44,087 nucleotides of DNA, taken from contig CANMTR010000019.1 of NCBI GenBank assembly GCA_947500825.1, forward strand, positions 1 through 44,087. The letters are read 5' to 3'. Both the position numbers and the translations under genes were made by a program. Source of the DNA: an uncultured Paracoccaceae bacterium. GTDB taxonomy: Bacteria > Pseudomonadota > Alphaproteobacteria > Rhodobacterales > Rhodobacteraceae. Below, in pieces: positions 8,316 through 11,744 of this stretch. Position 1 is the stretch's first letter, and every line of letters begins with the position of its first letter. The notes under the pieces are model-generated. The model was given only the letters and a program-made list of their open reading frames with translations. It did no database searches and was not told the DNA's origin.

Positions 8316-9722
8316 TCAGCCGGCCGCCTTGCGCGGGCCCTGGTCGCCGAAGGCGGGGTGGCCGAAATCGTCTGGTCCGGCCAGCTCGCACCGGTTGCGC
8401 CCGCCGGACTTGGCCCGGTAGAGCGCCGCATCGGCGGCGGCGATGGCCTCCTCGGGGGAGGCCGACACGGTGCAGGCGACCCCGGCGCTGATCGTCACCG
8501 TCAGCGCCTCGCCGCCGGCGACGACGGGCGCGCCCGAGAGCGCGGCGCGCAGCCGCTCTGCGGCCTGCATGGCCTCGGTCGGGCAGGTGTCGCTCAGCGC
8601 CACCAGGAACTCCTCGCCGCCGAAGCGGGCGACCATATCGTGGTCGCGCAGGTTGCCCTGCAGCCGCTCGGCCACGGCGCGCAGGGTGATGTCGCCGGCG
8701 GCGTGGCCGAGCCGGTCGTTGACGGACTTGAAGTGGTCCACATCGATCAGCACCACGCCGTAGCTGCGCCCCTCGCCCCTGCGAAGGGTGACCAGGTCGG
8801 CCAGATGGTGCATGGCATAGCGGCGGTTGTAGAGACCGGTCAGGTGGTCCTGGGCGGCCATGGTCAGCGTGCGGTCGAGCTGGGTGCGCATCTCGTCGGC
8901 CTCTACCTTGGCGGCAAGCTCGCGCCGGATCAGGAGCGCGCGCTCGGCGGGGCAGGCGTCGCGGCGCAGGAGAGCGTTGGCGCCTTGGTCGAGCGCGCGG
9001 ATACCCGCGGAGCGGTCGGTGTCGTCGAACTCCATCAGGATCGCGGCGCGGCGCGAGGCGTGATGGCTGCGCAACTCCGCCAGGAGCCACAGCGCCTCGT
9101 CGGGGTCGTCCTCGGTGGCGATGACATGCAGGTCGGCGGGTGGGCGCGGCGTTGCCGGGTCCAGCACCTCGGTGGGCGTGAGCGCCTCGATCCGGCAGTC
9201 GAGATGGGCAGAGAGCCCCTGCATCACCCGTCCAACGGCGGCACGCGAGGCGCCCACCAGGGCGACCCGGCGCGGACGGGCGAAGCCGCTCGCGGGCTCG
9301 GCGAAACCCAGCTTGCGCGCGGTGCCTACCTGTCGGGCGATCTCGGCCCGGGCGCCGTAGGCGCGCAGGAGGGCGCGGATGTTCGACAAGACCCACGCCT
9401 TGTCGATGGGGCGGCTCAGGACCGCGGCGGCGCCCGCCTCGAGCCAGCCGGCGCGCAGATCGGATGTGCTGCGGCTCGTGACCACGATGAAGGGGGGCAT
9501 GTCGGTGCCGGTGGCGGCCATGTCCTCGGCCAGGCCGGAGGAGGCGAAATCGGTCAGGCCCGCATCGGCGATGACGATGTCGGCGTTGCCCGCCGCGATC
9601 TCGGCGCGAGCCTCGGCGCCGGTGGGCACGGCCACGACCTGATAGCGGGCCGCGGCGAGCATGGCCTTGAGCGCAATACGGTCTGTTGCCGTTTGATCCG
9701 CAATCAGGACACGCCGTGCCAT
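8316..9722 (-). CDS. pleD: PleD-like diguanylate cyclase (REC-REC-GGDEF)
   Basis: A 468-residue response-regulator diguanylate cyclase that makes cyclic di-GMP from two GTP. The first receiver (1-120) has its phospho-acceptor at D53. A second, degenerate receiver spans about 151-270 without a clear acceptor, as in PleD. The GGDEF domain (about 285-445) has DHLTGLYNRR, a complete GGEEF active site at 368-372, and an inhibitory-site RDHD at 359-362 exactly five residues upstream, so product inhibition is expected. DivK, the usual partner gene, is absent nearby. It is divergent from the DUF3572 gene, an association frequent in this order. Confidence 0.9.
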   Translation of the reverse strand: MARRVLIADQTATDRIALKAMLAAARYQVVAVPTGAEARAEIAAGNADIVIADAGLTDFASSGLAEDMAATGTDMPPFIVVTSRSTSDLRAGWLEAGAAAVLSRPIDKAWVLSNIRALLRAYGARAEIARQVGTARKLGFAEPASGFARPRRVALVGASRAAVGRVMQGLSAHLDCRIEALTPTEVLDPATPRPPADLHVIATEDDPDEALWLLAELRSHHASRRAAILMEFDDTDRSAGIRALDQGANALLRRDACPAERALLIRRELAAKVEADEMRTQLDRTLTMAAQDHLTGLYNRRYAMHHLADLVTLRRGEGRSYGVVLIDVDHFKSVNDRLGHAAGDITLRAVAERLQGNLRDHDMVARFGGEEFLVALSDTCPTEAMQAAERLRAALSGAPVVAGGEALTVTISAGVACTVSASPEEAIAAADAALYRAKSGGRNRCELAGPDDFGHPAFGDQGPRKAAG

Positions 9723-9823
9723 GCTGTCTCCGTAAAAGGCCGTCGGACGGGGGAAGGCCCGATCCTTGTGTTTAAATCTGAAGCGATTTTGTTAAGAAAG
9801 TATTTCCCGCAATGGAGAGGACA

Positions 9824-10102
9824 ATGAACCGCGAGGCGGCGATGGCGCTGGCACAGGACGCGCTGATCTGGCTGGCCAGGCACGAGAACCTGATGCCGGT
9901 TTTCCTGAATGCGAGCGGAAGCGACGCCCCGAGCGTGCGCTCAGGCGCCCGCGACCCGCACTTCCTGGGCTCGGTACTCGACTTCGTGCTGATGGACGAT
10001 GCCTGGGTCGTGGCCTTTTGCGACGAGCGGGATCATGCCTACGAGGCGCCGGCGCGAGCCCGCGCGGCGCTGCCGGGAGGCCAGCAGGTCCACTGGACCT
10101 GA
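9824..10102 (+). CDS. DUF3572 family protein
   Basis: A 92-residue soluble protein of the DUF3572 family, function unknown, found mainly in alphaproteobacteria beside divK/pleD genes. Conserved segments are ALAQDALIWLARHENLMPVF near the start, DPHFLGSVLDFVLMDDAWVV in the middle, and a C-terminal ALPGGQQVHWT. I chose the ATG at 9824 over 9812 because GGAGAGG lies at the right spacing upstream. It is divergent from the pleD-like gene, with about 100 bp of AT-richer promoter DNA between. Confidence 0.85.
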   Translation: MNREAAMALAQDALIWLARHENLMPVFLNASGSDAPSVRSGARDPHFLGSVLDFVLMDDAWVVAFCDERDHAYEAPARARAALPGGQQVHWT

Positions 10103-10176
10103 TGCGCCCGGTGAGGAAGGATTAAGACTCGTCGGCTATCTCCGCGTCCACCCCGGGTAGGGAAGGGACGACGGCG

Positions 10177-10755
10177 ATGAACGGTATAGCGGCGCGGGCA
10201 ATCGAGAGGTTCGTCTGCGATACCTACGGTGAGGCCGCGTGGCACGACGTGGTGCGCAGGGCCCGGCTACACGTGAGCTCGTTCGAGCTGCTGCTGACCT
10301 ATCCCGAGAACACCACCGCGCGGCTCGTGGCGACCTCGACGGCAGTTCTGGGCCGGCAGGTACACGACCTGATGGAGGACTTGGGCACCTACCTGGTGAC
10401 CCACGACAACATGGCCGCGGTGCGGCGCCTCCTGCGTTACGGGGGGGCCGATTTCGAGAGCTTCCTCGACTCGCTCGACGACCTTCCCGACCGCACGCGA
10501 CTGGCCTTCCCGGAGTTGGTGCTGCCGCGGTTGCGCACCCGCCCGCGGGGGGCCGGGGCCTTCGATGTGGAGTGCGGCGAGGCCACGCCCCTGATGGTGC
10601 ATGTCTTGGCGGGCGCGATCCGGGCGATGGCGGACGATTACGGCGCGCTGGCCGTCCTGGACGTGGACGCGCCTGCGCGCCGCATCGCGGTCTCGGTGCC
10701 CGCGCTGCGCCATAGCGCGGGGCGGGACTTCCACCTTGGGGGGGCTACGCGATGA
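10177..10755 (+). CDS. H-NOX (HNOB) domain protein lacking the heme-ligand histidine
   Basis: A 192-residue protein whose N-terminus (MNGIAARAIERFVCDTYGEA) and helix pattern match the heme-NO/oxygen-binding domain of soluble guanylate cyclase and bacterial NO sensors. In canonical H-NOX proteins the proximal heme ligand lies in a segment like FLMMMDEVH; here it reads FLDSLDDLP, so position 104 is proline. The YxSxR motif that holds the heme propionates is also unrecognisable (FDVECGEATP, 129-138). No other histidine sits at the ligand position. It probably does not bind heme in the standard way and may act as an apo-partner. The stop overlaps the start of the HNOBA-GGDEF gene by 4 bp (ATGA). 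SD AGGGAAGGGA lies upstream. Confidence 0.8.
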   Translation: MNGIAARAIERFVCDTYGEAAWHDVVRRARLHVSSFELLLTYPENTTARLVATSTAVLGRQVHDLMEDLGTYLVTHDNMAAVRRLLRYGGADFESFLDSLDDLPDRTRLAFPELVLPRLRTRPRGAGAFDVECGEATPLMVHVLAGAIRAMADDYGALAVLDVDAPARRIAVSVPALRHSAGRDFHLGGATR

Positions 10756-11744
10756 TGCCGGAGGCGGAGATGCCGGCGCTGGGGCCTGGGGCGCTCGACG
10801 CGCTGATGCCCATGCATCTGGCGCTGGACGCGCATGGCGCGATCATGGCCTCGGGACGCGCGCTGCGCCGGCTTGCGGGAGAGGCTGCAGCGCCGGGATG
10901 CGACGTCTTCGACGGGTTCCGGGTGGTTCGCCCCGAAGGGGTGGAGGACGCGGGCGCGCTCCTTGCCCACGCGGGGAGGCCGCTGGTGATGCGGACCATC
11001 GTGGCGGGACGCGAGGTGACCCTGCGCGGTCACCTGGTGGCGGACGCGGCCGGGCGGGGCCTTCTGAACCTGGCGCTGGCGGTCTCGGACCTGCCCGACC
11101 TGGGCGGCGCGGACCTCACCGCGCAGGACTTCGCCCCCACCGACCCCACGGTGGACATGCTCTACCTCCTGGAGGCCAAGGAGCTGGCCTTTGCCGAGAC
11201 GCGGCGCCTGATCGGGCGGCTGCAGGGCGCCAAGAGCCGGGCCGAGGCGGAGGCGCTGACCGACGCGCTGACCGGGCTGGCCAATCGCCGGGCGCTGGAG
11301 ATGCGGTTGGCGGGGGTGGTGCGCGAGGGGCGCGCCTTCGCCCTGTGCCACGTGGACCTCGATTACTTCAAGGCTGTCAACGACACGCTGGGCCACGCCG
11401 CGGGAGATGCGGTGCTCCGCGCCGCGGCCCGTCGGCTGGGGGAGATCGTGCGGACCAGCGACACGGTTGCGCGCACCGGCGGGGACGAGTTCGTGCTCCT
11501 GTTTCCCGGGCTGGTGGAGATCGCGCGGCTGCGGGAGATCGCGGGCCGGGTGGTAGCCGAGTTGGAGCGGCCCGTGGCGTTCGGCGGGCGGGAATGCCGG
11601 ATCTCGGCCAGTATCGGGATCAGCCTGTCCACCGCCTACGAGCGACCGGACCCCGACCGGATGATCGCCGACGCGGATGCCGCGCTCTATGCCTCGAAGG
11701 TGGCGGGGCGGGCGCGCCACACCTTTCATGGCGGGGCGGGATGA
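10752..11744 (+). CDS. HNOBA-like sensor domain fused to GGDEF diguanylate cyclase
   Basis: A 330-residue protein. Residues about 20-135 resemble the H-NOX-associated PAS-like domain (HNOBA) of soluble guanylate cyclases: HLALDAHGAI, a VFDGFRVVRP segment, VTLRGHLVADAAGRGLLNLA, then DLTAQDFAPTDPTVDMLYLL. A helical linker at 136-170 (LLEAKELAFAETRRLIGRLQ) matches the signalling helix that precedes the catalytic domain. The cyclase follows, with DALTGLANRR, an intact GGDEF at 243-247 and inhibitory RTSD at 234-237. Cyclic di-GMP synthesis is therefore expected. Coupling to the H-NOX gene by an ATGA overlap implies the two proteins form one sensor unit. Confidence 0.85.
   Translation: MMPEAEMPALGPGALDALMPMHLALDAHGAIMASGRALRRLAGEAAAPGCDVFDGFRVVRPEGVEDAGALLAHAGRPLVMRTIVAGREVTLRGHLVADAAGRGLLNLALAVSDLPDLGGADLTAQDFAPTDPTVDMLYLLEAKELAFAETRRLIGRLQGAKSRAEAEALTDALTGLANRRALEMRLAGVVREGRAFALCHVDLDYFKAVNDTLGHAAGDAVLRAAARRLGEIVRTSDTVARTGGDEFVLLFPGLVEIARLREIAGRVVAELERPVAFGGRECRISASIGISLSTAYERPDPDRMIADADAALYASKVAGRARHTFHGGAG

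Follow-up and report, generated by a model that had tools for sequence, protein, structure and literature searches.

What does an H-NOX protein do when the histidine that should hold its heme is missing? The question is raised by one gene of the window, the whole 44,087-nucleotide stretch of DNA from an uncultured Paracoccaceae bacterium that was analysed here. From the letters alone, its product had been predicted to keep the H-NOX pattern with a proline in place of the proximal heme histidine. Activation of canonical H-NOX proteins is thought to run via rupture of the Fe-His bond (PMC12329717). The reading that we prefer, with a probability of about 0.68, is that the gene encodes a heme-independent H-NOX subunit that would regulate the diguanylate cyclase of the overlapping downstream gene.

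The fold and the missing ligand

The frame is intact, as had been claimed: the open reading frame list and its translation give an ATG start and zero internal stops (Table 1). The product matches the Pfam HNOB profile (PF07700) with 74 bits against a curated cut-off of 25.5. An AlphaFold2 model, computed from an alignment in which 49 named relatives join the window protein, reaches a pLDDT of 91.7 and a pTM of 0.85. Foldseek finds 48 matches to this model in the PDB at E<=0.001, and to judge by the titles each is either an H-NOX domain or an sGC beta chain; some entries, 3m0b and 3nvr among them, have titles without a domain name and are taken to be Tt H-NOX. The best match is 4iae_A (TM 0.75/0.79, E 6.9e-11) and the best matches lie at a TM of about 0.75-0.8. 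Profile, model and structural matches all bear out the H-NOX fold that the original prediction had proposed and had suggested checking by structure prediction.

Table 1. Features of the hnox locus and their positions in the window.
Feature	Position	Strand	Details and evidence
TTAA half-site only, roughly where related loci have their CtrA-type box	10122..10125	+	window sequence
hnox-like gene, predicted H-NOX fold without proximal His	10177..10755	+	192 aa; Pfam, phmmer, AlphaFold2, Foldseek
G70, hinge glycine by position, without V. cholerae H-NOX alignment	10384..10386	+	Gly in 162/162 His-less proteins
Residues 83-90 RRLLRYGG, signature of the Rhodobacteraceae orthologous group	10423..10446	+	alignment
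Codon CCC for P104, proximal heme-His position (Alr2278 H105)	10486..10488	+	alignments
P117	10525..10527	+	alignment; Pro in 162/162 His-less and 25/25 canonical-type proteins
Residues 133-137 CGEAT, site of YxSxR in canonical H-NOX	10573..10587	+	alignment
G146, second hinge glycine by position	10612..10614	+	Gly in 162/162 His-less proteins
Partner gene: sub-threshold HNOBA-like N-terminus, coiled-coil-like linker (by eye), GGDEF domain	10752..11744	+	Pfam; intact GGDEF and RxxD

In a phmmer search against PDB chains, residues 1-130 align with Nostoc Alr2278 and P104 stands opposite the histidine of the Alr2278 stretch 'LHAR', which is H105 as counted in that alignment. The same placement is found in an alignment of 210 HNOB proteins (see below). 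In the 25 of these proteins that have no GGDEF partner, our canonical-type comparison set, column 104 is histidine in 24 and glutamine in one, and columns 133, 135 and 137 are Y, S and R in 25/25; the window protein has C133, E135 and T137. Other histidines had been named as candidates for the ligand position, and we looked for them by alignment. H63 lies away from the ligand column, H76 is 28 residues from it, and the proline stays. The loss of both the proximal histidine and the YxSxR motif, as first read, holds. By sequence and model the window protein is thus a predicted H-NOX fold that lacks these two marks of a heme-based NO/O2 sensor. Canonical proteins (Nostoc Alr2278, a Shewanella H-NOX and loci L001 and L229, described below) resemble it in fold and in Gly70, Gly146 and Pro117, the last of which we take to be the heme-proximal proline. 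They differ from it in having the proximal histidine and, where checked (L001 and L229), YxSxR.

The partner cyclase

The stop codon of hnox and the start codon of the partner share the sequence ATGA at 10752. The partner's GGDEF domain scores 135.8 bits in Pfam, and its match to HNOBA (PF07701) scores 18.1 bits, below the cut-off of 23.4. The coupling that had been described is supported, to a GGDEF gene whose N-terminus is HNOBA-like at a sub-threshold score. When the partners of the window gene and of 40 named relatives were scanned with Pfam, GGDEF was found in 41/41 and HNOBA in 36/41 at E<=0.01. With its GGDEF and RxxD motifs intact, the partner is a predicted diguanylate cyclase.

The arrangement is general in the orthologous group defined below. 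Measured from the hnox stop, the GGDEF frame starts at -30 to +100 bases in 184/184 loci, 127 of which have an overlap of 4 bases. The GGDEF motif is intact in 22/22 loci whose hnox product has the histidine and in 160/162 of the His-less loci; one of the two exceptions reads SGEEF and the other is cut by a contig end.

On the 5' side of hnox lie a DUF3572 gene (9812-10102, + strand) and a response-regulator GGDEF gene (8316-9722, - strand) that is PleD-like by domain order. Two cyclase genes, this one and the hnox partner, are thus found within 3.5 kb.

A member of a published group

Proteins of this kind have been described before. The H-NOX proteins of Paracoccus denitrificans and R. sphaeroides were reported to be without the axial histidine in 2017 (PMC5588039), and Lee-Lopez and Yukl (2022; PMC8738867) describe a group 5 in which under 10% of the proteins have the proximal histidine and most have proline, no cysteine is conserved, the hinge glycines are kept and a GGDEF gene is the neighbour. 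The same authors raise the question of how group 5 proteins sense anything. In another survey the histidine was invariant across 598 sequences, which had been collected with the V. cholerae protein and did not extend to the His-less group (PMC7108781).

The window protein has P104, G70 and G146 (hinge glycines by position) and an adjacent GGDEF gene. These are traits of group 5, to which the P. denitrificans protein (Pden_3719) belongs; in strain HAMBI_2443 the ligand site reads ELPGR and the group signature is present. One difference is H76, which the window protein has and the P. denitrificans protein has not. At 36% identity and with an RRLLRFGG-type signature in the latter, we place the two in the same cluster, a judgement made without rebuilding the published network. 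We see no essential difference between the window protein and group 5, of which it is, by sequence, a further member. Because both papers already describe the trait, our finding at this locus is another member of a known group. The original prediction was right about the fold, the lost histidine and YxSxR, selection and the coupled gene; its alternative of a differently ligated heme fared less well (see below), and it missed that the trait is family-wide and published and that some members bear the histidine. What we add to the literature is the placement of Dinoroseobacter shibae Hnox, the repeated changes of state, the coupling of positions 104 and 135, an estimate of selection and a promoter element. 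Our searches of open-licence papers gave no report that positions 104 and 135 are coupled or that group 5 includes D. shibae Hnox.

Distribution in the Rhodobacteraceae

In a search of the genus, HNOB genes were found in 13/14 genomes, the window's own included. Of its relatives 12/13 have the gene, and in 12/12 of these the ligand column holds P, A or V in place of histidine, so the missing histidine is not a chance event in one genome. In the family search HNOB was found in 181/248 genomes. The loci studied further were 100 lower-scoring places among the matches listed and the best 80 named loci. The latter were ranked by their match to an alignment headed by D. shibae Hnox, and this named sample is therefore enriched for proteins with the histidine. 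A class-wide sample gave matches in 8/289 genomes; the three at full strength (239-284 bits) are all from Rhodobacteraceae.

From 224 HNOB proteins 14 identical ones were removed, leaving 210, of which 185 have a downstream GGDEF frame and 25 do not. One protein of canonical type with a GGDEF partner (L036) was moved out by hand, so that the orthologous group has 184 distinct members, 162 His-less and 22 with the histidine. With L036 removed, the ligand column of these 184 reads P122, H22, S11, A7, Q5, R4, N3, K3, V2, T2, G2 and D1; eleven different residues replace the histidine. As the GGDEF partner was part of the initial selection, we used the signature as a partner-independent check. At least two of R83, R84 and R87 are found in 183 proteins, all of which (183/183) have the partner, and the signature is found in 0/25 of the partner-less proteins, which makes the grouping independent of the partner criterion; L048, with one arginine of the signature, was retained. 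The 184 members come together in one group (support 99, with a long stem) on a tree that also includes seven outgroup rows. R83, R84, R87, E67, D68, D153 and Y155 are nearly invariant in the group and are not shared by canonical-type proteins. No cysteine is invariant, and the commonest is present in 104/162 His-less proteins.

Counted by genome, 11/103 in the family sample have the histidine and 92/103 lack the heme ligand. Cereibacter (Rhodobacter) sphaeroides 2.4.1 (L116) is among the latter, with proline at the ligand column, as in P. denitrificans HAMBI_2443 (L237).

One of the weaker class-wide matches (L229, G509:C3), also from Rhodobacteraceae, is canonical, with the histidine and YYSER, and falls outside the His-less group. 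It adjoins a frame that is HNOBA-like with GGDEF, and with an EAL-like stretch by eye. In another locus (L039, G098:C4), canonical in type and from a VHVEV-like paralog group, YxSxR is kept and glutamine stands for the proximal histidine; this would be a separate loss outside the Rhodobacteraceae His-less group.

D. shibae Hnox

Locus L105 comes from a genome with a plasmid stretch that shows 100% identity across 8000 bases with the D. shibae DFL 12 plasmid NC_009955.1, and it is that D. shibae genome's only HNOB match among the matches listed. D. shibae Hnox is reported to sense NO and to inhibit Dgc1 (PMC7232146, PMC8846402). This pair (Dshi_2815 and its neighbour) shares the orthologous group and the GGDEF operon with the window gene, and the two H-NOX proteins are 41% identical. 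However, D. shibae Hnox reads DDLHDR at the ligand site, with H104 and W135 where the window protein has P104 and E135. By alignment, then, the NO-responsive D. shibae Hnox belongs in a mostly His-less group and has retained the histidine. Its sister on the tree, from Dinoroseobacter sp. MO_035.B25 (L144; support 98, 52% identical), has arginine at the ligand position and keeps W135. Genes of this group are named NO-binding or NO sensors in records and papers. Since about nine in ten genomes of the family sample are without the ligand, NO sensing is not transferable from D. shibae by homology alone.

Selection and evolutionary history

The His-less hnox genes are under purifying selection, as the original prediction had supposed from the intact frame and the coupled gene. 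By the Nei-Gojobori method the median dN/dS is 0.115 and the maximum 0.30 in 31 His-less pairs; these are among 34 with usable dS (the other three have the histidine) out of 52 pairs with at least 72% identity. Branches are shared between pairs, and dS is often >1.

The ligand position itself has changed repeatedly. Column 104 shows 40 amino-acid changes on the tree, near the column median of 45, and columns 103, 106, 110 and 117 show 7, 2, 5 and 0. Columns 135 and 137 show 79 and 104. Switches between histidine and any other residue number at least 10-16, according to which tree and rows are used: 11 and 12 in two analyses, 10 on 80 rows and 12-16 over 21 trees. The direction of these changes is less clear. 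With seven outgroup rows (191 in all), parsimony does not distinguish a root with histidine from one without (13/13), and likelihood with a flat root gives histidine 0.86. In the same setting irreversible loss reaches lnL -77.5, against -53.2 for a reversible model and -54.2 for gain only from a root without histidine. Repeated simple loss is disfavoured by this much worse fit, and gain only fits nearly as well as the reversible model. A tree in which the 22 proteins with the histidine form one clade was rejected too (p-AU 0.018, on these 22 and 58 of the 162 His-less rows), so that a single event, whether loss or gain, does not fit. The backbone supports of the tree are weak.

Positions 104 and 135

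Does the rest of the heme site follow the histidine? At position 135, the serine of YxSxR, tryptophan or histidine is found in 18/22 proteins with the proximal histidine, in 10/122 with P104 and in 15/40 with other residues, so that W or H is also present there in 25/162 of the His-less proteins. A model of correlated evolution between the state of 104 and W/H135 gives a likelihood ratio of 35.5. When 115 columns, 135 included, were treated alike, the next column reached 18.1 and the 95th percentile was 13.2. Among nine tested columns 135 is the highest on 21/21 trees (one FastTree tree and 20 resampled), with a median of 35.0 and a range of 26.0-44.8. Position 135 was chosen post hoc after the scan of all columns and the tree is weak; the 115-column control and the 21 trees are the safeguards. 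An independent-pairs test had only 4 usable pairs. The broader idea that the whole YxSxR loop co-varies with 104 was dropped, as the top ten columns include 133, 136, 137 and 141 but also 80, 160, 164, 167 and 186, and across the 21 trees the median for 133 is just 6.6 and the out-of-loop columns 80 and 160 score as high as 136, 137 and 141.

Because residue 135 changes together with the histidine, the pattern suggests that loss of the histidine meant loss of heme rather than re-ligation; in taking this step from coupled residues to heme binding, we infer. Matched orthologs with and without the histidine make the published question of sensing testable, and the coupling predicts which of them would bind heme.

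A possible mechanism and its rivals

In the mechanism that we propose, the window H-NOX would bind no heme and would dock on the HNOBA-like and coiled-coil part of its partner. H-NOX domains dock thus in sGC-type architectures. There, the alpha subunit brings an H-NOX domain without heme into a cyclase complex; this domain is eukaryotic and fused to guanylate cyclase, and the window protein is likened to it in this respect. The window H-NOX would probably in the main inhibit its cyclase; we propose this sign because NO-bound D. shibae Hnox is reported to inhibit Dgc1 (PMC7232146), because the hnoX genetics of P. denitrificans agree (PMC5588039) and because a protein with no Fe-His bond to rupture should lie nearer to the activated state. 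Canonical activation is also taken to involve a conserved proline and two hinge glycines (PMC7108781; for the glycines also PMC8738867), and P117, G70 and G146 are all kept in the His-less proteins (Table 1), their equivalence to the published residues being by position. The window protein may be constitutive or may answer another signal. That a His-less member matters in vivo is argued by P. denitrificans, where the HAMBI_2443 protein has ELPGR and lacks H76 and an hnoX deletion mutant of strain Pd1222 is biofilm-deficient; a double cyclase mutant overproduces biofilm (PMC5588039). The same paper models the His-less protein as NO-responsive, which counts against a heme-independent reading. 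In P. denitrificans c-di-GMP is reported to have resisted quantification (PMC12582929). Signalling through a heme-free H-NOX fold has a precedent in the redox-sensing protein of V. cholerae (PMC7108781). That protein has a three-cysteine zinc site, and a zinc site of this type (three cysteines plus His/Gln) was rejected for the window protein, which has two cysteines in all.

A heme-free regulatory subunit, one of three readings first offered, remains the best: the fold and the presumed hinge are kept, the histidine and YxSxR are gone, selection acts and the operon encodes a GGDEF protein. Another was a heme protein with a different iron ligand, still sensing NO or O2, most likely through a distal-side H76. 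This residue, present in the window protein and in 123/162 His-less proteins, stands opposite Alr2278 Y77 in the phmmer alignment, presumably near the distal heme face. However, it is no commoner where the proximal histidine has gone (15/22 among proteins with the histidine, Fisher p 0.44), so compensation is not seen and H76 was set aside as a replacement ligand. It is missing from 39/162 His-less proteins and from that of P. denitrificans, and no replacement histidine is conserved across the 162. With YxSxR gone and residue 135 changing with the histidine, we consider a re-ligated heme improbable.

The third reading, a sensor of another ligand, would have the former heme cavity bind a different small molecule or a metal and switch the cyclase. 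It would be a special case of the heme-independent subunit, and the odds of the two overlap. Regulation may well be retained, because the fold, the presumed hinge glycines and the group-specific residues (R83, R84, R87, E67, D68, D153 and Y155) are kept, and Pfam detects no further input domain in the partner protein. Against this, no ligand motif was recognized, the extra conserved residues may be a partner interface and columns 135 and 137 change often; we think this version rather unlikely. Absence of the ligand residue and of the heme motif would also be expected of a decaying pseudo-sensor without function, which is hardly credible given the low dN/dS, the intact frames, the family-wide operon and the P. 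denitrificans mutant phenotype (PMC5588039).

A wider proposal, which we hold tentatively and below even odds, is that the Hnox-Dgc operon flips between a heme-based, NO-sensing mode and a heme-independent one over the evolution of the Rhodobacteraceae. The change would involve residue 104 and an aromatic W/H135, without altering the fold, the hinge, the partner cyclase or the TTAA upstream of hnox. If so, heme sensing would be a module that a conserved cyclase switch can shed and, to judge by the present tree, perhaps acquire again.

An upstream CtrA-type element

TTAA is found within 150 bp upstream of hnox in 173/183 loci, about 48 bases before the start, against 513/6744 control windows. 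A degenerate form, TTRR-N7-TTAA, was tried after viewing the stacked sequences and is thus post hoc; it occurs in 66/184 loci (8/22 with the histidine and 58/162 without) against 4/10157 in the control. With other spacings the counts among the 184 loci are 12 for 6 bases, 2 for 8, 1 for 5 and 2 for 10. The full CtrA motif, TTAA-N7-TTAA (PMC6180460, PMC4046655), is found in 1/183 loci. The box fits this motif, and it also fits the report that D. shibae hnox is regulated within the quorum-sensing/CtrA network (PMC7232146); many members of the group have such a putative CtrA-type box upstream of hnox.

A second H-NOX and denitrification

Besides the hnox of this locus, the window's genome encodes another HNOB protein (L001, G000:C63, frame 1429-1986, - strand), with the histidine and YRSSR. 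It is followed by a frame that is HNOBA-like with histidine kinase and receiver parts (the latter two by eye). The genome thus keeps one canonical-looking H-NOX beside the His-less one.

Is the histidine kept where NO is made? Genomes were called denitrifying by a NirK match (TIGR02376) over cut-off or by PF02239 at E<1e-90, taken as NirS-type. On this basis 6/11 genomes with the histidine and 31/92 without it count as denitrifying (Fisher p 0.20). In the window's genome, G000:C34:3378-4253 (+ strand) matches copper nitrite reductase (TIGR02376, NirK; 322.6 bits), so its own metabolism may be a source of NO alongside the His-less H-NOX.
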